Shown: positions 7,369 through 29,684 of the stretch, piece after piece
How the letters are laid out: every line of letters starts with the position of its first letter
Position numbering within the stretch: position 1 is the stretch's first letter
Origin: a bacterium
GTDB lineage: Bacteria; Gemmatimonadota; Glassbacteria; GWA2-58-10
Reading direction: 5' to 3'
NCBI GenBank assembly: GCA_021372515.1
Contig: JAJFUG010000015.1
Location: forward strand, 1 to 34,999
DNA: 34,999 nt
Made by a program: the position numbers and the translations under genes
Notes under the pieces: generated by a model
Databases searched by the model: none
The model's input: the letters and a program-made list of their open reading frames with translations, nothing else
What the model was told of the DNA's origin: nothing

Positions 7369-7444
<76 letters not shown>

Positions 7445-18022: not shown

Positions 18023-18051
18023 TTGACAAATGAATTTTGTCGGGATAACAT
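18023..18051 (+). promoter_or_regulatory. Promoter of the ROK gene with an internal palindrome
   Basis: A perfect TTGACA (18023-18028), 17 bases and TAACAT (18046-18051) form the promoter. The inverted repeat GACAAA-N5-TTTGTC (18025-18041) overlaps the -35 element and spacer. The leader to the ROK start at 18310 is about 250 bases. Confidence 0.65.
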
Positions 18052-18054
18052 TAC

Positions 18055-18071
18055 TTGCATGCAACGTGCAA
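18055..18071. promoter_or_regulatory. Operator 1: TTGCATGCAACGTGCAA at the ROK gene transcription start
   Basis: TTGCA-N7-TGCAA begins three bases after the -10 element and so covers the transcription start. A closely similar 17-base sequence (13 of 17 identical) lies at the same place before the TonB-receptor gene (19629-19645), which suggests one repressor for both. Confidence 0.6.
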
Positions 18072-18309
18072 TTAAATACGACAAAGCAACATCTATCTTG
18101 CGGACAGGCCCGTTTCCCCTCAAGTTGAATGCATAGCCTTACTACCAGAAAGCTTTTAAGTCTATACCCACAGCACCGTTCAAGACCCTTTACGCACGGA
18201 AGCCCTGCAGGGTGTCTTACCGGCCCGAACAAGGGACCCGTATCAATTCAGGCGGAACTGTGCACCGCCAAGGTCGATCGAGAGCTGCATCAGCTCGGAG
18301 AAAGTCACG

Positions 18310-19575
18310 ATGAAAGAATTGTTTGAAGAAGTGTTCCCAGACAGCAACATGCCGTGGAATATCAACCGGGCCACTGTCCTGAGCACGATCATCGAGAAAG
18401 GGCCTATCTCGCGGGTTGATATCGCCAGGCTTTCCGGACTCGACCAGAGCACGGTTTCGCGAATAATGACCAAGCTGATTGAAAGCGGCATAGTCCTGGA
18501 GGAAAACAAGGGCAAGAGCGCCCTGGGACGAAAGCCGATCAACGTTAAGCTCAACGCCCGCAGCCGCGTGGTGGGCGTAATCGTGGTCAACCCCTGGCAG
18601 ACCGAGATTGCGGTGATCGACCTGAACGGCAACCTCATCAAGACCAAGCGGCTGAGCACGATCGTCGAGGACCCGCAGAATTTCCTGGCCGCCTGCTCGA
18701 GCGCGCTGCAGGTGATGCTGGACACAATCGCGATCCCCCTGGCCGGGATGACTGTCACCCTCCCCGGTTGGGTCGACCAGTTGCGGGGCGTACTGATCGA
18801 ATCGCCCTACCTGGGCTGGAAAAATGTCGAGGTGGCCAAGATAGTTTCGAAGAAAATACAGAGCAAAATCTTCGTGGAGAACGATCAGCGCTCCTCGGCC
18901 CTGGCGCAGATCTGTTTCTCCCCTGAAGCCATGGGCCTGAAAAGCTTCTTCCTGGTTCAGATAGATGTCGGGGTCTGGGGCGCCCTGGGCTGCCACAACA
19001 CGGTCTATCACGGGGCGCAGGGCCGCGACTGCCAGATCGGCTCGCTGCTGGTGCCGCTGGCCGCCGATTTGCAGACCGCGGGCCTCCCGGCCGTGGGCGA
19101 GCTGGAAAACATGGCTTCCGAGCGGTTTATTGTCAACCGGTACTGCGAGCTTTCCGGCAAGCCTTTGCAGGAAAACACCGACTTCCAGATAAGAGGTATC
19201 ATCTGCGAAGCTTCCAAAGGCGATCGGTCGGCAGTGCAGGCGATCGAGGAAGCCGCCTTCCACCTCGGTTCGACCCTGCCGGAGGTGGACCGGATGTTCG
19301 ACACTGAAAAAATCATTATCGCCGGCAAGCTGACCCGGGTCTGGGACATCGTGCTGCCAGCCATGCTCAAGGGCAGCCGGCACAGTTCCGTGCACAAGGA
19401 ACGTCAACTGGAAAAACGCATCATCCCATCCTCACTCGTCTGGCCGCCCTACGAGGGGGCCGCGGCGATAGTCATCAAGGATTTCCTGGGCGGTTTCCAG
19501 GTAGTCCACCGTCAACCGACTGTTACAGACTGGCAGATGCAGATCTGGGAAGACTGGGAGAAATACGCTTCCTGA
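18310..19575 (+). CDS. ROK-family transcriptional repressor with degenerate kinase motifs
   Basis: The 421-residue protein has an N-terminal winged HTH (residues about 17-80, recognition helix DQSTVSRIMTKLIESG, followed by GRKPINVKLN) and a C-terminal ROK sugar-binding domain. Family phrases are visible: VTLPGWVD, GVLIESPYLGW, KIFVENDQRSSALAQ. Where active members read GTGIGAGI, it reads IDVGVWGALG. The Cys-rich zinc motif (CxCGxxGCxE) is absent, replaced by PLAADLQTAGLPAVGELEN. It should therefore sense a sugar without phosphorylating it, like NagC/XylR-type repressors. The start follows GGAG nine bases upstream. It lies directly upstream of the TonB-receptor operon and shares a 17-base operator-like site with it, so it is the likely local regulator; the inducer is unknown. 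Confidence 0.9.
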   Translation: MKELFEEVFPDSNMPWNINRATVLSTIIEKGPISRVDIARLSGLDQSTVSRIMTKLIESGIVLEENKGKSALGRKPINVKLNARSRVVGVIVVNPWQTEIAVIDLNGNLIKTKRLSTIVEDPQNFLAACSSALQVMLDTIAIPLAGMTVTLPGWVDQLRGVLIESPYLGWKNVEVAKIVSKKIQSKIFVENDQRSSALAQICFSPEAMGLKSFFLVQIDVGVWGALGCHNTVYHGAQGRDCQIGSLLVPLAADLQTAGLPAVGELENMASERFIVNRYCELSGKPLQENTDFQIRGIICEASKGDRSAVQAIEEAAFHLGSTLPEVDRMFDTEKIIIAGKLTRVWDIVLPAMLKGSRHSSVHKERQLEKRIIPSSLVWPPYEGAAAIVIKDFLGGFQVVHRQPTVTDWQMQIWEDWEKYAS

Positions 19576-19594
19576 GCTTTCAGGCAGACTGATT

Positions 19595-19645
19595 TTTCCT
19601 TTTGGGGTATTTTTTAATATACTATTTCTTGCATGCTCCACGCAA
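19595..19645 (+). promoter_or_regulatory. Promoter and operator 2 of the TonB-receptor operon
   Basis: A TATACT -10 (19618-19623) lies in a very AT-rich stretch with only a weak -35 (TTTCCT, 19595-19600). Five bases after the -10 is TTGCATGCTCCACGCAA (19629-19645), the counterpart of the site at 18055-18071. A weak -35 and an operator at the start point fit a repressed or activated promoter. Confidence 0.55.
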
Positions 19646-19769: not shown

Positions 19770-19885
19770 CAATCCCCTGGAGGGCCTATGGCATAAAATT
19801 CCAAAGTCCGAGTCTCGAACCGTCTCCCGCAGGCTTTCGCTGAAGCATCCAGCGTAAAGCACGTACTTTCCATGGCGGAGGATCC

Positions 19886-22800
19886 ATGACTGGCGTCATG
19901 CATTTTCTCAAAACAACCGGACTCGCTCTGATCGCTGCGGCCCTTCTGTTCGGCCCGGCCTCCTCAGTGCGGGCTCAGCTCAACACGAGCAAGATCGAGG
20001 GGGTTGTCCGCGATAAAACCACCGGTCAACCGCTGGTGGGGGCCCAGGTGCAGATCGAGGGCACCCGGCTGGGCAATGTGACCAACGCGGACGGCTACTA
20101 TTTCATTTTGAACGCACCGCCGGGACGGCGCTCCATAGTTTTCTCCTACACCGGCTACCAGAAAGTCATAGTCGCAGAACAGCTCCTGCTGGCCGGCCAG
20201 ACCACCACGGTCAACGCCGACCTCAGCTCCACAGTGGTCGAGATCGAGGGCATCACGGTCCAGGGTGAGTCCGAGGTGCTCGTCCCGCGCGACAACACCG
20301 TCTCCAAGCAGCGTCTCACCTCCGACCGCATCTCCGAATCCCCCATCTCCAAGCTGGAGGACCTTCTGGTCCTGGAGCCCGGGGTCCAGATCGGCGGCGA
20401 GGGCGGCATGGCCCGCGGCCTGCGTATCCGCGGCGGCCGCCTGGGCGAGGAGTCGATGGTGGTGGACGGCGTGATCGTGCGCAACTACACGGCCAACCCG
20501 TTCCGTAGCGGCTACGGCTGGATTTACGAGCAGGAGGCCGGCTCCCTGGGCGAGGACACCACCCCGCTCGAGGTTTCCACCAACGCGGTCGAGCAGGTCG
20601 ACATCATCACCGGCGGGTTCCAGGCCGAGTACGGCAACGCCCAGTCCGGCATCATCAACATCGTCACCCGCGAGGGCGGCTACCAGTTAAAGGGCAGCGC
20701 CCGCCTGACCACCGACGAGCAGAACCCCCGCACCGCCGACTACGGCTACAACCAGCTCCAAATGGACCTGGGCGGCCCGGTTCCCGGCATCCCCAACCTG
20801 TTCTATCACGGGTCCGGGGAAATCCAGGGCATGGCCGACCGTTATCCGACCCACGCCGATGAGGGCTTCCGCGGGGTGAACCAGGAGTTCGTGGACCACC
20901 TGAACGATGCTGTGCACAACGACCCGGTGTTCCGCAAATTGATGCCGGTATACACGCTGGAGGAGCTGCAGAAAGGCCGTCAGTCCTACGCCGACCTGAC
21001 CGGCAAGAGCGCCTCGCTCTGGTCGCCGGCCAACCCGGTGCGCCTGCCCGGCAACTGGATGGACCGCACGTTGGCCTCCGGCAAGATCACCTACAGCCCG
21101 ATCAGCGCGCTGAAGCTGATCAGCAGCGTAAATTTCTCGCGCAACCAGAACTCCTACCCGCAGAGCTATTTCGACAACGGGATCGTGACCAAGAGCCAGT
21201 TCCCCTACCGCGACTGGTCAAAGGATGCCGACACCACGCTCTACATCCCGCAGAGCCTGGCCCGCCGCACCCGCACCAGCAACACGCTGCTGGGCTTCGA
21301 CTGGACGTTCCTGCAGGGGGTCAAACGCAACGCCTCGCTGCAGTTCCGCTACACCAACATGCGCAACCAGGATGTCAACAGCGCCTCGCAGAAAACCAAC
21401 TACACCCACGACACCTCGTTCCTGAGCTGGACCCCGCACGACGCCCAGTTCGAGGTGGAATCCTATCCCAACCGCGAGCTGCCGGTCGACCCGGCCGATT
21501 TCCACTACTATCCCGACGGGCAGAGTTTCAACCACCCGAACTGGAGAGTGGAGATGCCGTTCAGCCTCAGCGCCAGCAGCGGGCTTTACGGCCTGAGCTA
21601 TTTCTACATGCGGGAGCATCAGAACAACTACAAGGCCGACATCGACTTCCAGCTCAACCGGACCAACCGGGCCAAAATGGGCCTCATGGGCACGTTCTTC
21701 GAGAACGACATGTTCTCCGTCGATTTCATGAAACTGTCCCGCGACCTGTCCAACGAGTTCAACTACAAGCCGCGGATGTACGCCTTCTACCTGCAGAACC
21801 GCACCGACCTGGGTGATTTTGTCTTCGACTACGGGCTGCGCTACGACGGGTTCCAGCCACGCGCCAACTGGGGCGTGCGCTACGGCGACCAGTGGGGCCA
21901 GGACTATTTCCCCAAGAACCTGAGCAAGGTCTCGCCCCGCTTCGACGTGGCTTTCCCGGTGACCGAGAAAAGCCAGTTGCGCTTCTCCTACGGCGTGTTC
22001 ACCCAGTTGCCCAGCATGGCTTTCATCTACAGCGGCGAAAACACGGGCGACCTGGACTACAGCCGCACCGACGCCTTCGAGGCCGGCCTGAGCTATCTGA
22101 TCAGCGACAACTCGGTGCTGGACGTGGTGGCCTACTACCGCGACGTGCAGGGCAACCTGGCCCTCAAGGAATACTTCCGCGATTACAATGAGTATTACAG
22201 CCAACGCCGCATCCGCGAGTATTTCACCGGCTACACCAACCGTGACAACGGCAACATCAAGGGTATGGACATCACCCTGCGGCGCCGTTTCGCCGAGAGT
22301 TTCTCTTTCAACCTGATGTACACAATGCAGTTCTCCCGCACCACCGGCAGCCAGTACAACTCCACCTCCTCCTGGGGCATTTTCATCGATCCGGCCACCG
22401 GCGAGCAGTACCAGCCGCCGGATGAAATCCGCCCGATCGACGGGGACATCACCCACAAGCTGTCGGTGAATGTCAACCACATGTTCCCCGAGGATTTCCA
22501 TTCCGGCACCTGGATCAACACCGTGCTCGGCAATGTGCGCTCCTACGCCATGTTCAGCCTGTCCAGCGGCCAGCCCCTGGTCGACCGGATCGTGCACGGC
22601 GGCGATGCCACCGAGGTTTCCTGGCTCACCCGCAGCGGCGGCCAGATGGTCGGCGGCCTGAACTATTTCCGCGGTCCCTGGGACTACAACCTCGACCTGC
22701 GTTTCAGCAAGACTTTCAGCCTGGGCGGCAGCCGCCGTCTCAGCGTGTTCAGCGAGATATTCAACGCCCTGAACAAGAAGAACAACGCTGCCTACCCCCA

Positions 22801-23035
22801 GGGCTACACCTACGAGGGAGCGAGCACGATCACCGGCGGGCTGGACCTGCTCTGGAGCGATGATCTGCTGCCGGAGCAGAAAGTCAGGTTCAACGCGGAT
22901 TTCAACCAGGACGGTATCCTGAGCGTGATGGAGGCGGCCAAGGGAAGCATCGCCTCCAGCGCGATCAATTCCATGTCGAATCAAGCCTGGGGCATGGCGC
23001 GCCAGATCCGATGCGGTCTGGAATACAGCTTCTGA
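19886..23035 (+). CDS. SusC-like TonB-dependent outer-membrane receptor with EF-hand loop
   Basis: The 1049-residue protein has a Sec signal (TTGLALIAAALLFGPASS, cleavage near residue 32). A carboxypeptidase-regulatory-like domain follows (IEGVVRDKTTGQPLVGAQV to about residue 115), then a plug domain (LEDLLVLEPGVQIGG, GLRIRGGRLGEESMVVDGV, QAEYGNAQSGIINIVTREGG) and a long beta-barrel ending in aromatic CGLEYSF. It imports a ligand across the outer membrane using TonB. Near the C-terminus, DFNQDGILSVME (residues 1005-1016) is a canonical calcium EF-hand loop, which is unusual here. The start has GGAGG five bases upstream. It heads a four-gene rightward set (secreted protein, PorV-like barrel, then a symporter). 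No SusD partner is present. The ligand is unknown. Confidence 0.92.
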   Translation: MTGVMHFLKTTGLALIAAALLFGPASSVRAQLNTSKIEGVVRDKTTGQPLVGAQVQIEGTRLGNVTNADGYYFILNAPPGRRSIVFSYTGYQKVIVAEQLLLAGQTTTVNADLSSTVVEIEGITVQGESEVLVPRDNTVSKQRLTSDRISESPISKLEDLLVLEPGVQIGGEGGMARGLRIRGGRLGEESMVVDGVIVRNYTANPFRSGYGWIYEQEAGSLGEDTTPLEVSTNAVEQVDIITGGFQAEYGNAQSGIINIVTREGGYQLKGSARLTTDEQNPRTADYGYNQLQMDLGGPVPGIPNLFYHGSGEIQGMADRYPTHADEGFRGVNQEFVDHLNDAVHNDPVFRKLMPVYTLEELQKGRQSYADLTGKSASLWSPANPVRLPGNWMDRTLASGKITYSPISALKLISSVNFSRNQNSYPQSYFDNGIVTKSQFPYRDWSKDADTTLYIPQSLARRTRTSNTLLGFDWTFLQGVKRNASLQFRYTNMRNQDVNSASQKTNYTHDTSFLSWTPHDAQFEVESYPNRELPVDPADFHYYPDGQSFNHPNWRVEMPFSLSASSGLYGLSYFYMREHQNNYKADIDFQLNRTNRAKMGLMGTFFENDMFSVDFMKLSRDLSNEFNYKPRMYAFYLQNRTDLGDFVFDYGLRYDGFQPRANWGVRYGDQWGQDYFPKNLSKVSPRFDVAFPVTEKSQLRFSYGVFTQLPSMAFIYSGENTGDLDYSRTDAFEAGLSYLISDNSVLDVVAYYRDVQGNLALKEYFRDYNEYYSQRRIREYFTGYTNRDNGNIKGMDITLRRRFAESFSFNLMYTMQFSRTTGSQYNSTSSWGIFIDPATGEQYQPPDEIRPIDGDITHKLSVNVNHMFPEDFHSGTWINTVLGNVRSYAMFSLSSGQPLVDRIVHGGDATEVSWLTRSGGQMVGGLNYFRGPWDYNLDLRFSKTFSLGGSRRLSVFSEIFNALNKKNNAAYPQGYTYEGASTITGGLDLLWSDDLLPEQKVRFNADFNQDGILSVMEAAKGSIASSAINSMSNQAWGMARQIRCGLEYSF

Positions 23036-23106
23036 AAACCGTGCTGAGGACAACCGTGGCACTGGTTCGTCAACTGAGCAACCGGATCAACACTCGGAGA
23101 GTTCCA

Positions 23107-26100
23107 ATGAACAGGCATCTGCTTCTGATATTCGTCATTGCCGCTTTGCTGTCGGCTCTGGCAAGCGTGGCCCTCGGTGAGGTCAAGACCGAGTACACCG
23201 CCCAGGGCAACAACGTGGGGGCGATAATCGGCACCGGCTACGGCGGGCCTTTCTGGGGCCGGGCCCAGTTCCCGCGCGGCTCGGGTAATTTCTACGGCAC
23301 CCACGATGACTCCAAGTGGAACAAGGATTCCGATGACACCCGCATCAACTGGGGCGTCAGCATCGCCCGCGACCTGAACGGGGACGGCGTGTCGGACGAC
23401 ACGCTGTACAACAAGTACCGCGGGGCGCACATCTACGGCTGCAACAACAGCCTGGAGTCGTACGATCTGCTCTCCGGCCTTTACAACTCGGGCAACAATA
23501 TGTTCGAGGCGGCCTCCCGCGCCGAGGTCAACCGGGTCTATTCCTCGCTCGACCCCGAGGACCTGGCGGCCTGGCCGGCCGAGTTCCGCCAGGGCCGCAC
23601 CGCTGAGGGTGACCCGATCCTCATCGGCGCCGAAACGGTCTGCGTCCGCTTCGGGGACGCTTTCCACGAAGCCGGCGACGCCATGGGTGTGTCCATGGAA
23701 TACCGCTTCCACATGCTCAATTTCGGCGAGAGCAACAATATGGTTTACGGGCATGTGTTCATCCGCAACATGTCCGAGTACAACAAGTGGAACCCGCTCA
23801 AAAAGTACGCCGCCCAGATGCAGTCCACGCCGGACGGCCAGGTCTGGAAGGGCTGGCAGTACCATTTCGCCATGACCCGCATGCGCATCGGCGCCCGGGA
23901 TGAGGGCTGGATAATCAACTGCCCCTACAATATCCTGGGACAGGTGGACCGTGACAATGCCGAGGCCTCCTTCGCCGGCAACGTCCCGGCCATGATCGCG
24001 CAGATGGCGCTGCGCCTGCCCTCGTTCAGGGGCGAAACCATGGAGCTGACCAACGCCAACGCCATGGCCTGGAACTGCGAGTACGGTTACTGCGACGCCC
24101 CGGATGTGCTGGAGAACGGGCACGACGCCGGAGAGAGCTACCGCTACGGCCTGGGTGAGAAAGCCGGAGAGCTGTCGCACAAGAGCAACCTGGAAGGCCT
24201 GGTCAGCCCCTGGACCGGCCGTCAGGCCTGGGGCTACCCCGGAATAATGGACCCCGGCGACAGCCGCTACAACCAGTGGATGTGGGGTGACAGGCAGGCC
24301 GAGAACACCTACATGTTCTGGTCCGAGCTGCACGATTTCGCCCCGCGCGACAGCGCGAGCGCCGATTTCGTCCTCATGTTCGTCATGCCGCCGTCCGGCA
24401 CCTGGGCCATGCCCAGGGCCACGCTGGCCAATCTGGACGACCAGAACGTGCAGGCCCACTTCGCGCCCGTCCTGAGCAACGCCAACGTGGCCAGACTGGT
24501 CTACGACGGCGGCCTGATCGTGCCCGAGACCCCAGCCCCGCCCGCGCTGACCATCATCCCCGGAGACCGCCAGGTTGCAATCACCTGGAGCGACATCAAT
24601 TTCCAGACCCCGGACAAGTACTACTATTTCCTGCAGGCGCATCCCGAGCTGGACCCCAATCATCATTACAAAGAGTATGATATGGAGGGCTACCGGCTCT
24701 ACCGCAGCTTCGTCGGCCCGAGCGACACCCACTCCGAGCTGATATTCTCCTGCAGCAAGAGCAGCGACAACATCCAGTTCTACTACCTGGACAGCTACGA
24801 GAAAGACCAGCCGCTCTACCGCATGTGGAACGGCAAGAAGGTCTGGTACGCCCTGGTGCCGTTCGACAAGAACTACGACACTGTCACCGGCGCCGAGTTC
24901 AGCCTTCCCATTCCGACCAGCGGCAAGACCTGGAACCGTCCGGGCCAGAACCTCTACACCGTGATCCCGCGCAGTGATGCCAGCGATTTCAGGGCGGCCG
25001 AGGTCGATGGCCAGGTCCGGTTCATCGCCGCGGACGGCTCCACGCCCGAGAACGCGCGCAACGTAGTGCTCAGCGGCCCGGGCGACGGCAGTCTGACCGA
25101 CCCGCCGGTCGAGCTGGCCCCGCTGCCGTTCTACACGGTGGAATTCGTTCCGGTCAACAACGAGCGGCTCACCGCCGCCAAGACAGTTTACCTGACAGTC
25201 AAGGACCGCATTGTCTACGACCAGCAGTGTGATGGCAACATCATGGCCGTGGAGAACACGCTGTCCCTGATCGACGGCAGCTACGAGACCGCGTCCAAGA
25301 GCCTGTACGGCGGCGGAGCGGACCGCCCGGTGCTCAGCCTGGCCGGCCCGGTCGACAATGCCGGGATCAACTACAACTTCGATTTCACCTTCGACAGCAT
25401 GTCCAAGCGCGGTGTCTACACCGGCCTGTATTTCCACATCAACACGGGCGGCTACACGGGTGGCGCTGTACAGGTACTGACCGCCCGTGGTTGCGGCCCC
25501 GAGGCCCGTCCCGGCACCTCGCCCTCCAACTTGTACACCACCCGCGCCGGAAGATTCCAGGTGACCTGGAAAGACGCCGGCGGCGGCAACCTGACCGTGG
25601 AGGTCAAGGCCCTGTCCCGCGGTGCGGCCGCGGTGGACAAGGTGGATTACCCGGACGAGTGGGGCTGGGGTTTCCAGACCAAGGCCGGTTCCGGTGGTGA
25701 CCTGATCGGCAACCGTGGCACGTACTACGACGAGGCTTTCGGCAGCGGCGCTCTGCCCAAGAGCGAGCGCACGGTAAAGATGGCCTCCACTATCCCGGCG
25801 GACAACATCGAGCAGTTCGGCCTGTTCCTCAACGGCATCCTCTGGATCGCCAACAAGGATGGCGGCGACGGGATTACGATGCCGGCGGCCGGGACTGTCT
25901 GGATCATCGACAACGCCTACGGCTCCTGGGACGACGATATGAAAAAGTTCACCCAGGTCCCGGACATGGCGTTCCCGGGCGACAAGTGGGAGATCAAGAT
26001 CAAACCGTCCAGCCTGGACCCTACCAACGCAGACATGAGCCTGATCAGCGTGGTGCCGAACCCCTATCTGGCCTCCTCTATCCTCGACCTGTCGCCCGAC

Positions 26101-26412
26101 AGCCGCCGCATAGAGTTCGTCAACCTGCCCGACAAGTGCACGATCCGTATCTACACGTTGAACGGCAACCTGGTCAACATGCTCAACCACATCGGCGCCA
26201 ACCGTCAAGGCTGGGGCGACTACACCGACTGGGACCGTCTGAACGTCAACAACCAGCCTGCGGAGCTGACCGGCTACGACAACCACGGCGGGACCGAGGC
26301 CTGGAACCTGCGTAACCGTTTCGGCCAGACCGTGGCCAGCGGCCTGTATTTCTACGTTGTCACCGACTCGCGCGGAAAAAAGTTCACCGGGAAGTTCTAT
26401 GTGGTCATCTGA
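23107..26412 (+). CDS. Large secreted protein with FN3-like and C-terminal FlgD/Por-type domain
   Basis: The 1101-residue protein starts MNRHLLLIFVIAALLSAL and has a Sec signal to about residue 24. An N-terminal region of unknown fold includes a calcium-type DLNGDGVSDD loop (residues 89-98). A fibronectin-III-like segment begins near residue 478 (ALTIIPGDRQVAITWSD). The last 120 residues read VVPNPYLASS, IRIYTLNGNLVNML, and end with a GTEAWNLRNRFGQTVASG plus KKFTGKFYVV phrase. This is the FlgD-like/Por-type C-terminal domain used for type IX-style sorting in FCB bacteria. The start follows GGAG seven bases upstream. It lies 71 bases after the TonB receptor and 70 before a PorV-like barrel, so the three are likely one operon. 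It may be a surface-bound ligand-capture protein; no enzyme motif was seen. Confidence 0.8.
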   Translation: MNRHLLLIFVIAALLSALASVALGEVKTEYTAQGNNVGAIIGTGYGGPFWGRAQFPRGSGNFYGTHDDSKWNKDSDDTRINWGVSIARDLNGDGVSDDTLYNKYRGAHIYGCNNSLESYDLLSGLYNSGNNMFEAASRAEVNRVYSSLDPEDLAAWPAEFRQGRTAEGDPILIGAETVCVRFGDAFHEAGDAMGVSMEYRFHMLNFGESNNMVYGHVFIRNMSEYNKWNPLKKYAAQMQSTPDGQVWKGWQYHFAMTRMRIGARDEGWIINCPYNILGQVDRDNAEASFAGNVPAMIAQMALRLPSFRGETMELTNANAMAWNCEYGYCDAPDVLENGHDAGESYRYGLGEKAGELSHKSNLEGLVSPWTGRQAWGYPGIMDPGDSRYNQWMWGDRQAENTYMFWSELHDFAPRDSASADFVLMFVMPPSGTWAMPRATLANLDDQNVQAHFAPVLSNANVARLVYDGGLIVPETPAPPALTIIPGDRQVAITWSDINFQTPDKYYYFLQAHPELDPNHHYKEYDMEGYRLYRSFVGPSDTHSELIFSCSKSSDNIQFYYLDSYEKDQPLYRMWNGKKVWYALVPFDKNYDTVTGAEFSLPIPTSGKTWNRPGQNLYTVIPRSDASDFRAAEVDGQVRFIAADGSTPENARNVVLSGPGDGSLTDPPVELAPLPFYTVEFVPVNNERLTAAKTVYLTVKDRIVYDQQCDGNIMAVENTLSLIDGSYETASKSLYGGGADRPVLSLAGPVDNAGINYNFDFTFDSMSKRGVYTGLYFHINTGGYTGGAVQVLTARGCGPEARPGTSPSNLYTTRAGRFQVTWKDAGGGNLTVEVKALSRGAAAVDKVDYPDEWGWGFQTKAGSGGDLIGNRGTYYDEAFGSGALPKSERTVKMASTIPADNIEQFGLFLNGILWIANKDGGDGITMPAAGTVWIIDNAYGSWDDDMKKFTQVPDMAFPGDKWEIKIKPSSLDPTNADMSLISVVPNPYLASSILDLSPDSRRIEFVNLPDKCTIRIYTLNGNLVNMLNHIGANRQGWGDYTDWDRLNVNNQPAELTGYDNHGGTEAWNLRNRFGQTVASGLYFYVVTDSRGKKFTGKFYVVI

Positions 26413-26482: not shown

Positions 26483-27682
26483 ATGTTAAGGAAAGCGGTC
26501 TCATTCTCCTTAGCCACCGCTGCGAGTCTTCTGCTGCTAACGAGCGCGGCTCTGTTCGGCCAAGGGGTTATGCGGCAGGAATACAGCGGCCTGGACAAGT
26601 ATCCAGTCCAGGGACATCCCGAGTCGTCCTCGTTCGTGGGCGTGCGCGCCGCCGAGTTCCTGACTATCCCGGTCGGTTCGCGCGGGATTGCCATGGGCGG
26701 AGCGTACACGGCCATCTGCGAGGGCGTGTCGGCCATCTGGTGGAACCCGGCCGGCATCGGATTCCTGGAAAGCAAAGAGGTCATGGCCACGGTGGTGGAC
26801 TACACCCTCGACCTGACCTACACCTACGGCGCTATGGCCATGCCGGTGGCGGACGGCCGCGTGTCGGTGGGCGCCTTCTTCGGCTACCTGGATGTGCCGG
26901 AGATGAAGATCACCACGATCAACAGCCCGCTCGGCACAGGCCACACGTTCAACGCCTATGATTTCCAGATGGGCGGATCGCTGGCCTATCATTTCTCGGA
27001 CCGCTTTGTCGGCGGCCTGAGCCTGAAATACATCCACGAGGACGTGTTCAACAACATCGGCGGCAACGCTTTCGCCATCGATGCCGGCGGTATCTACCAC
27101 ACCGAGTTCATCGATCACGACATCAAGTTCGCCTTCGCCGTGCAGAACCTGGGCTCCAACATCACCATGCGCGGCTCCAACCTGATCGTGAGCCTGGCCC
27201 CGGAGGGCACCGGCGACGGATACAGCGATTTCTCCACCGACCGCAGCGCCATGAGCCGCCGGGCCTCGCGTGACGCCATGCGCATGACCCACACCTACCG
27301 GTTGCCCACCGCGGTGAAAATCGCCGCCGCCATGAACCTTTACACCAACGAGAAAGTCAACTGGCTGGTCTCGGGTGAGGTCTGGCGCAACAGCGACATC
27401 CCGATCAGCTATTCCACGGGCACCGAGATGAGCTACAATTTCAACCCGGTTATCTCGGCCGCCCTGCGTTTCGGCTGGCAGATACAGACCGATGAGTTCA
27501 CCGACAACACCGACCAGTACGGGTACGAGTACTACGGCGACGACCCGACGTTCCGCGGCCTGAGCATCGGCGGCGGCTTTGTCCGCAAAATCGGCGGGCG
27601 CACCCTGGCCTTCGATTACGCCTATCGCAACAAGGGTAACCTGTCGGCCGACAACTATTTCTCGCTGACTTTCGGGTTCTGA
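26483..27682 (+). CDS. PorV/PorQ-family outer-membrane beta-barrel protein
   Basis: The 399-residue protein has a Sec signal (MLRKAVSFSLATAASLLLLT, cleavage near FGQG) and is otherwise built of alternating strands of a FadL-like barrel. Landmarks are AAEFLTIPVGSRGIAMGGAY, SAIWWNPAGIGF, GSLAYHFSDRFVGGLSLKYI and an aromatic C-terminal strand ending FSLTFGF. The RGxAMGGAY...WNPAG signature is that of PorV/PorQ (UPF0164-like) proteins; PorV carries type IX cargo by its C-terminal signal. The start at 26483 has TTGGAGG upstream; the frame is open to 26357. It is preceded by a protein with a Por-type C-terminal domain and followed by a strong terminator at 27723. Cargo recognition is inferred from the pairing. 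Confidence 0.88.
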   Translation: MLRKAVSFSLATAASLLLLTSAALFGQGVMRQEYSGLDKYPVQGHPESSSFVGVRAAEFLTIPVGSRGIAMGGAYTAICEGVSAIWWNPAGIGFLESKEVMATVVDYTLDLTYTYGAMAMPVADGRVSVGAFFGYLDVPEMKITTINSPLGTGHTFNAYDFQMGGSLAYHFSDRFVGGLSLKYIHEDVFNNIGGNAFAIDAGGIYHTEFIDHDIKFAFAVQNLGSNITMRGSNLIVSLAPEGTGDGYSDFSTDRSAMSRRASRDAMRMTHTYRLPTAVKIAAAMNLYTNEKVNWLVSGEVWRNSDIPISYSTGTEMSYNFNPVISAALRFGWQIQTDEFTDNTDQYGYEYYGDDPTFRGLSIGGGFVRKIGGRTLAFDYAYRNKGNLSADNYFSLTFGF

Positions 27683-27722
27683 GCCGAAAACTTCTGCAAG
27701 CTATGTGCAGAACCTGCAACAC

Positions 27723-27765
27723 GCCCCTCCGGTCCGGATGCTCCGGTCCGGAGGGGCAATTTTTG
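27723..27765 (+). terminator. Terminator after the PorV-like gene
   Basis: Arms 27723-27738 and 27742-27757 pair over sixteen positions with one T/T mismatch around a three-base loop, followed by AATTTTTG. It closes the receptor operon 40 bases after the PorV-like stop. Confidence 0.9.
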
Positions 27766-27817: not shown

Positions 27818-27846
27818 TTGACACGGAAGCTGCATTGGAGGATAAT
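27818..27846 (+). promoter_or_regulatory. Promoter of the SSS symporter gene
   Basis: A perfect TTGACA (27818-27823), 17 bases and GATAAT (27841-27846) lie about 65 bases before the start codon. No TTGCATGC-type operator is seen here, so the symporter may escape the ROK-linked control. Confidence 0.75.
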
Positions 27847-27911: not shown

Positions 27912-29684
27912 ATGTCAGCTCTGGACTATCTGATAGTGATCGGGTATTTCGCTGTCATGCTCTTTATCGGCCTTAGGCACCAGAAAGTCGCATCTCTGGA
28001 TGTCCGGAGCTATTTCCTGGGGGGTAATAAAATACCCTGGTGGATCACGGCCATGAGCTCGAGCATGGCCTCGATCGACATCACCGGCACGATGGTCAAC
28101 GTGTCGCTGCTCTACTACATGGGGATACGCTCGTTCTGGTACAACATCTGGGTAGTGGGCGAGGTGGCCGCGATGCTCCACCTGGGACGCTGGATCAGAC
28201 GCTCGAAGGTGGTCACGGCGGCGGAATGGATGACCACGCGTTTCGGCTCCGGCTGGGCCGGCGAGTTGCCCCGGCTCACCATCGCCATCGTTTCGCTCGG
28301 CCTTCTGCTGGGCTACGTGGCCTACGCCTTTGTCGGGGTGGGCAAGTTCATCTCGGCCTTCGTCCCGGCCTTGAGCGCCGACCCCCTTACCAACGCCCGG
28401 CTCTGGGGAACGATAGTGATCTGCTTCACCGCGCTCTATGCGGTTCTGGGCGGACTTTTCAGCGTGGCCTACACCGACCTGATCCAGACTTTCATCCTCT
28501 TCCTCACCTCCATCTATATCGCCGTGACCGCTTTCCTCAAGGTCTCGCCCGATTTCATCGCCGCCCACACCCCCGCGGGCTGGAACATGGTGCGCCCCAC
28601 CACCCGGATCGACTATCTGCACGGGGTATCGCTGGCCGGGTACCCGGCCGGGGCTTTCGAGCTGTTCCTGCCCTGGCTGCTGATGTGGGGGTTCCAGACT
28701 CTGCTGGCGTTCTTTTCCGGCCCGGGCGTGGGACAGAGCATGCAGTTCATGCTCTCCACGGCCAGCGCCCGCGACACCTGCAAGCAAGGGGCGGGCTTCC
28801 ACCTGATGGCTTTCCCACGCTGGATTCTGGTGGCCGGGCTGGCCCTGCTGACCCTGACCCTGCAGGTGGACGTGACCGACACGGACATGCTGCTGCCCGA
28901 GATGATCAACCGTCTGCTGCCCTGGGGGGTCAAGGGGTTCGTGCTGGTGGGGTTCCTGGCGGCGTTCATGTCCACCTTTTCGATCAGCATCAACAACGGC
29001 ACCTCGTACATCATCCGCGACATCTACCTGCGCTACGTGCGGCCGGAGGCGGGACGGCGCGAGTTCCTGAACGTGACCTACCTCTCCTCCGTGGCTTTCG
29101 TCATCCTGGGAATCTGGCTGGGCGCCTCGATGCAGAGCGTGCTCGAGCTGGGGATCTGGGTCTATTCCGTGCTGGCGGGGAGCCTCCTGATACCGCTGAT
29201 CCTGCGCTGGTACTGGTGGCGTTTCAACGGCTGGGGCTTTTCGTTCGGTATGATCGCCGCGTTCGCCGTGGGAGTGGGGCAGAAAATCCTGCAGAACTGC
29301 ACCTCGGTCGCCTGGCCGGACTACGTGTTCTATTTCCTGATGATCGTCATCTCGGTGGTGGTCTCGGTGGCCGGCACCCTGCTTACCCCGGCCACGGACC
29401 GCGAAACCCTGCTCCAATTCTACCGCAGCATACAGCCCTGGGGCTTCTGGGGCCCGGTCCGCCGCGAGGTGGCGGCCAGGTGGCCCGGGTTCAGCGGCGA
29501 GAGGATGCTGGCTCTGGACCTGACCAACTGCCTGGTGGGCGCGGTGAGCCTTTTCTGTCTGAACCTGATGCCGTTCTATTTCATGCTCCACGACTGGAGC
29601 ATGTTCCTGCGGCTGCTGGCGGTGTTCCTCGTGACTGCGGCGGTGATGTACCGCACCTGGTACCGGACCCTGCCGCAGGATTGA
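27912..29684 (+). CDS. Sodium:solute symporter (SSS) family transporter
   Basis: The 590-residue inner-membrane protein has about thirteen hydrophobic segments of the SSS family. It begins LDYLIVIGYFAVMLFIGL, has the diagnostic YFLGGNKIPWW, then MSSSMASIDITGTMVNV in helix 2, AEWMTTRFG, YAVLGGLFSVAYTDLIQ, FFSGPGVGQSMQFMLS, and FLAAFMSTFSISINNGTSY. It should import a sugar or organic solute with sodium; the substrate is unknown. GGAAGGG five bases upstream fixes the start, and a near-consensus promoter lies at 27818-27846. It follows the TonB-receptor operon, so it is likely the inner-membrane partner of that outer-membrane uptake route. It converges with a leftward M50-like gene 27 bases later, with no terminator seen between. 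Confidence 0.94.
   Translation: MSALDYLIVIGYFAVMLFIGLRHQKVASLDVRSYFLGGNKIPWWITAMSSSMASIDITGTMVNVSLLYYMGIRSFWYNIWVVGEVAAMLHLGRWIRRSKVVTAAEWMTTRFGSGWAGELPRLTIAIVSLGLLLGYVAYAFVGVGKFISAFVPALSADPLTNARLWGTIVICFTALYAVLGGLFSVAYTDLIQTFILFLTSIYIAVTAFLKVSPDFIAAHTPAGWNMVRPTTRIDYLHGVSLAGYPAGAFELFLPWLLMWGFQTLLAFFSGPGVGQSMQFMLSTASARDTCKQGAGFHLMAFPRWILVAGLALLTLTLQVDVTDTDMLLPEMINRLLPWGVKGFVLVGFLAAFMSTFSISINNGTSYIIRDIYLRYVRPEAGRREFLNVTYLSSVAFVILGIWLGASMQSVLELGIWVYSVLAGSLLIPLILRWYWWRFNGWGFSFGMIAAFAVGVGQKILQNCTSVAWPDYVFYFLMIVISVVVSVAGTLLTPATDRETLLQFYRSIQPWGFWGPVRREVAARWPGFSGERMLALDLTNCLVGAVSLFCLNLMPFYFMLHDWSMFLRLLAVFLVTAAVMYRTWYRTLPQD

Follow-up and report, generated by a model that had tools for sequence, protein, structure and literature searches.

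The described systems that come closest to the locus reported here would be local ROK regulons, such as those of NanR in Bacteroides and of the ROK regulators of Thermotoga. NanR (BT0433) of Bacteroides thetaiotaomicron, which serves sialic acid and GlcNAc use, resembles our case as a ROK protein predicted for glycan use in a SusC-type host, and its regulon comprises mainly cytoplasmic monosaccharide genes, along with a few periplasmic or extracellular proteins (PMC3878776). The Thermotoga maritima regulators XylR, ManR, BglR, ChiR, TreR, GluR and IolR likewise have local regulons in which the operator occurs once or several times, and their operators, which were tested in vitro, precede transport and hydrolase operons (PMC3750489). 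In Bacillus, XylR is also a ROK repressor that acts at a promoter palindrome and controls its own gene together with the neighbouring operon (PMC9104551). Mlc and NagC of Escherichia coli and Lmo0178 of Listeria (PDB 5f7p/q/r) have the same domain order as the protein examined below. Among nine papers found on Glassbacteria, none was concerned with gene control as judged by title.

Here we analysed a stretch of 34,999 nt (the window), which is an entire contig (C15) of a 4.87-Mb Glassbacteria genome in 222 contigs, and in which a ROK-type gene stands before a TonB-receptor operon (Table 1). Unlike NanR, the ROK protein of the window lacks the zinc motif of the family, is predicted to control a receptor operon, in which we found no SusD-like partner; we do not claim orthology between the two. 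The Thermotoga regulators control ABC transporters, whereas TonB receptors take this place in the window, and the likeness drawn here is one of regulon layout.

Table 1. Positions of the regulatory elements and genes of the window.
Feature	Position	Strand	Remarks
ROK gene promoter, sigma-70-type	18023..18051	+	TTGACA 18023-18028, 17 nt, TAACAT 18046-18051
Candidate operator 1	18055..18071	+	TTGCATGCAACGTGCAA; 3 nt past the -10, spans the expected transcription start
ROK-type regulator, 421 aa	18310..19575	+	N-terminal winged HTH and PF00480 domain; zinc motif lost
TonB-receptor operon -10 region	19618..19625	+	TATACT/TACTAT, without a good -35
Candidate operator 2	19629..19645	+	TTGCATGCTCCACGCAA; before the TonB-receptor operon
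Receptor mRNA leader element	19778..19796	+	Second Shine-Dalgarno (TGGAGGG), two-codon ORF ATG GCA TAA
SusC-like TonB-dependent receptor	19886..23035	+	Carboxypeptidase-regulatory-like domain, plug, barrel; heads the operon
Large exported protein	23011..26412	+	C-terminus weakly resembles that of PorZ (type IX secretion); translation probably begins ~100 nt into the ORF
PorV/PorQ-family outer-membrane protein	26483..27682	+	Last operon gene
Terminator of receptor operon	27723..27764	+	G+C-rich hairpin, then T5
Symporter promoter, near-consensus	27818..27846	+	TTGACA-17-GATAAT; gene 27912-29684

The ROK protein and the receptor operon

The PF00480 (ROK) domain of the regulator extends over residues 98-373 and scored 94 bits against a curated Pfam cut-off of 22.9, and a winged helix-turn-helix is present at the N-terminus (HTH_24, 31.1 bits versus 21.9; MarR, 29.6 versus 24.6). 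Its best match among solved structures was Lmo0178 (1.3e-27), with Mlc-type structures also matching. NagC was the best NCBIfam model (143.8 bits, cut-off 650), and Mlc scored 88.7 bits (cut-off 530); since both values fall far under the equivalog cut-offs, we rejected an assignment as a NagC or Mlc orthologue. The signature of the ROK family includes a zinc motif, GHx9-11CxCGx2G(C/H)xE, and five sugar-binding residues, N, D, E, H and E (PMC2742894). The window protein lacks the zinc motif, reading QIGS...AGLPAVGELE at this place with neither His nor Cys, and the motif was missing in 9/9 aligned Glassbacteria ROK proteins (alignment A1). The sugar-binding residues N191, D192 and E266 are retained and the E and H of the ExGH motif are replaced by Q and S (QIGS), so that, unlike Mlc and NagC, the window protein has neither the zinc finger nor ExGH. 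Judged by its residues, the protein is a ROK member by descent and an atypical one by signature. An earlier note on this DNA had proposed that a sugar ligand relieves repression; this ROK clade has lost both the zinc motif and a His that contributes to sugar binding, so that the ligand need not be a simple sugar, and this part of the proposal is unproven.

The receptor is weakly SusC-like (50.8 bits against 368 for the SusC model), and a search for a SusD lipoprotein partner found none, the gene after the receptor being without a Pfam match; a SusC/SusD polysaccharide utilisation locus was rejected because the receptor falls below the SusC cut-off and no SusD-like gene is next to it. As the earlier note had observed, no copy of the operator precedes the symporter gene. 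A palindrome-like stretch at 27694 was discarded, as it has six mismatches and precedes the terminator. The symporter gene is placed outside the regulon because a terminator, its own promoter and no operator precede it.

The leader of the receptor mRNA contains a start-stop element of a kind found repeatedly in this group. Tiny ORFs of 1-7 codons with their own Shine-Dalgarno sequence, often in the form GGAG-n-GCCTATG, lie ~50-190 nt upstream of TonB-receptor genes. Such ORFs were present in 12/22 Glassbacteria TonB-receptor leaders and in 2/74 control genes whose upstream space is free (Fisher p 7e-8, a value that overstates independence because the leaders are paralogous). Besides the window, the leaders concerned are L022, L023, L026, L028, L029, L037, L040, L042, L043, L083 and L089, and a mini-ORF occurs in all six leaders of the six ROK-headed loci. 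The string GGAG-n-GCCTAT itself was found in 12 of the 22 leaders against 0.04 expected, GCCTAT occurs without ATG in some receptor leaders, and the encoded peptides are not conserved across leaders. An Rfam search of the leader gave no match; the sole Rfam match in the window was a tRNA gene at 7372-7444 on the minus strand. A possible precedent, the upstream ORF of a copper-regulated operon, comes from a paper that also treats TonB-dependent proteins (PMC9426467). These mini-ORFs form a lead of their own, which may extend to many receptor operons.

Candidate operators in the window and on contig C115

Both 17-mers named in the earlier note were confirmed, a recount giving the same identity of 13/17, as was their start 3-5 bases past a -10 element. 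On the ROK side the trinucleotide TAC separates TAACAT from operator 1. On the TonB side, TATACT (19618-19623) ends 5 nt before operator 2 and the alternative TACTAT (19620-19625) 3 nt before it, and the -35 is poor (3/6). Each operator is an imperfect palindrome with 6/8 pairs, laid out as six-base arms and a five-base spacer (as in TTGCAT-GCAAC-GTGCAA), with half-sites TTGCRTGC flanking one central base. A protein bound across the start, past the -10, would block and not activate transcription, which makes it quite unlikely that the ROK protein is an activator, or that ligand strengthens its binding, with the receptor operon expressed by another route; the poor -35 of the TonB-side promoter would fit such a reading, as would the loss of the zinc motif and sugar-binding His, with which the usual sugar-induced release may not apply.

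The resemblance between the two sites was compared with chance using 1000 pairs of dinucleotide-preserving shuffles of both upstream regions. A 13/17 match arose somewhere in 83% of the shuffled pairs, and the identity alone is therefore no evidence; a 13/17 match in which both copies were also 6/8 palindromic arose in 0.4%. We then searched the 4.87-Mb genome with the pattern TTGCATGCNNCRYGCAA, the consensus of the two window sites only. There was no further exact match beyond the window sites, and a single mismatch was found in one place only, C115:1164-1180 (TTGCGTGCAGCAAGCAA), which is a better palindrome than the window sites (7/8 versus 6/8) with the core AATTGC...GCAATT. From base composition ~1.4 one-mismatch places are expected genome-wide, so that the sequence score of the C115 site proves nothing and the site rests on its position. 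On the minus strand of C115 the order is TTGACA-AGCCCGAAATGTTGTGC-GATTAATAA-TTGCGTGCAGCAAGCAA, with a perfect -35, and the site begins 32 nt after the start of TTGACA, exactly as at the ROK promoter. In this genome's DNA, TTGACA stands at that offset from a random place, in either orientation, with a frequency of 0.00026. The site is intergenic, 126 nt upstream of the start of a gene encoding an exported protein with a BNR_2 (sialidase-like beta-propeller) domain (322 bits). Sites with matching geometry are thus carried by three promoters, those of the ROK gene, the TonB-receptor operon and the BNR_2 gene. The genome scan that the earlier note had called for yielded one extra site, at the same promoter position and before a functionally fitting exported gene.

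At E<=1e-10 the genome has no other gene like this BNR_2 gene. In the relative G001 (an MFIX01 MAG), three BNR_2 homologues lie on the same strand directly behind genes for a TonB receptor, a large exported protein and a PorV-like protein; since these homologues sit inside the same type of operon as that of the window, membership of the BNR_2 gene in the window regulon is expected. Similarity to solved sialidases was weak (2e-07), and the name therefore stays BNR_2 rather than sialidase.

Coincidence between two AT-rich promoter regions, joined by a chance match on C115, could account for a 13/17 identity and for one single-mismatch site, given the frequencies above; the rarity of paired palindromes among the shuffles, the repetition at C115 of the 32-nt offset from a perfect -35 and the fitting target gene make this reading very improbable. 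Other places with three mismatches, most of them read singly, were set aside, nearly all lying within open frames or having no promoter in register. On C73, two three-mismatch relatives of the operator lie 40 bp apart outside long genes (44844 and 44884, within C73:44844-44900; L136); no matching promoter in register was seen, and the pair was left uncounted.

ROK loci in relatives and the identity of the binder

A contig search with the receptor alignment named Candidatus Glassbacteria and other Gemmatimonadota-group MAGs as relatives, and a contig search with the window ROK protein alone gave no match. The genome holds four ROK genes of this kind, three of them directly before a TonB receptor, and the same arrangement occurs in the relatives G001, G003 and G004. 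The ROK promoters of these three relatives have the form TTGACA-17-TAxxxT with a palindrome within a few bases, namely ATATTCTTGTAGAAAGAATAT (G001), ATATTCTTTCCGAAAGAAAAT (G003) and ACATTCTTTCCGAAAGAATAT (G004), all past the -10; these were the best matches to their consensus among the genomes listed. An autoregulatory palindrome at this position is therefore usual for this ROK group. The relatives' palindromes share a 6-5-6 core (arms-spacer-arms) with the window sites, and the recognition helix reads QSTVSR in the window, QSTVSK in the three relatives and KPTVSS in the paralogues on C78 and C209; on these sequences, the palindrome varies together with the recognition helix. The Bacillus XylR consensus, TTNGTTT-AAACNAA (PMC9104551), differs from the window half-sites; the site at the paralogue locus on C209, GTTAGTTAGTTTTGACAACAATTATTAG, is loosely similar to it, and an XylR-like consensus, with 3 mismatches allowed, matched nowhere in this genome.

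These comparisons bear on whether the three sites are a real operator of another DNA-binding protein, such as a LacI-type regulator encoded elsewhere, with the ROK gene as a target and not the master. A LacI-type regulator likewise binds a short palindrome over the start site, and the TTGC...GCAA of the window departs from the T-rich/A-rich edges that most ROK sites are reported to have (PMC4856308). One of the three sites, however, is in the promoter of the ROK gene itself, as is usual under autoregulation, other palindromes occupy the same position in the relatives' ROK promoters, which would be expected of sites that change along with the recognition helix, and the odd-length 6-5-6 core is common to the window sites and those of the relatives, so that we consider another binder unlikely and retain the ROK protein as the predicted one.

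No clear second palindrome was found before the receptor gene in the relatives or at the other ROK loci of the genome, G001 having a weak candidate (p 0.02). The two-promoter arrangement is hence not conserved, the second copy being clear in the window only, and in loci without it transcription from the ROK promoter probably continues into the receptor gene. In a tree of 29 receptors the ROK-paired receptors did not form one clade, and the window pair stood apart. Four further loci of this genome (L059, L064, L065 and L067) contain TonB-receptor paralogues headed by NtrC-type sigma-54 activator response regulators and not by ROK genes; a simple pattern found no sigma-54 promoters before these receptors. 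In L072 and L073 the gap between ROK and receptor genes contains a repeated hairpin-like element, CCCATGCCGTCAGTTCCGCCAAG...CCGGCATGGGCC, in two or three copies per region. A Sortilin/Vps10-type BNR-repeat gene adjoins the ROK gene in relatives (L070 7923-10469, L072 9235-11706, L073 9394-11784 and L071 46-1638) and is divergent from it in 3/4 of these loci; such neighbours are a second link between ROK and beta-propeller proteins.

The predicted regulon and its meaning

The earlier note had proposed that the ROK protein acts at one common operator to repress both itself and the uptake operon. For these two promoters the predicted binding is well supported by the genome scan and by the relatives' palindromes, and the regulon appears larger than proposed, since it includes the BNR_2 gene. 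The three sites suggest that the same repressor serves all three transcription units, and we consider it probable that one ROK-type repressor would govern an autoregulated local regulon of three promoters through a 17-bp imperfect palindrome past the -10. What can be read off directly is where the sites lie and that they occupy the same place in their promoters, together with the order of the genes, the terminator and the symporter's separate promoter; that ROK is the binder and repression the effect, and what kind of ligand acts, we infer. Without ligand, a ROK dimer would sit on the start sites and block RNA polymerase at its own gene, at the adjoining TonB-receptor/PorV operon and at the distant BNR_2 gene on C115. 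The dimer would be released by a ligand that arises when the imported compound is broken down and that stems from the material which the BNR_2 protein and the receptor provide. With release at all three promoters, enzyme, receptor and repressor would therefore increase together, and the repressor would cap its own level.

More broadly, and as a tentative idea that we hold to be rather doubtful, the Glassbacteria ROK clade, whose members no longer have the zinc finger or a complete sugar site, might provide swappable switches for SusC-like uptake operons, the operator changing with each pairing and the start-stop mini-ORF of the leader adding a second, mRNA-level layer of control. The loss of the zinc motif across a whole clade of working-looking ROK regulators raises the question of whether the motif is needed for regulation. 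The predicted regulon offers a testable set of three operators and one repressor in an uncultured lineage, and by linking one specific outer-membrane receptor to an exported BNR_2 gene that is otherwise an orphan, it would narrow what that receptor imports.
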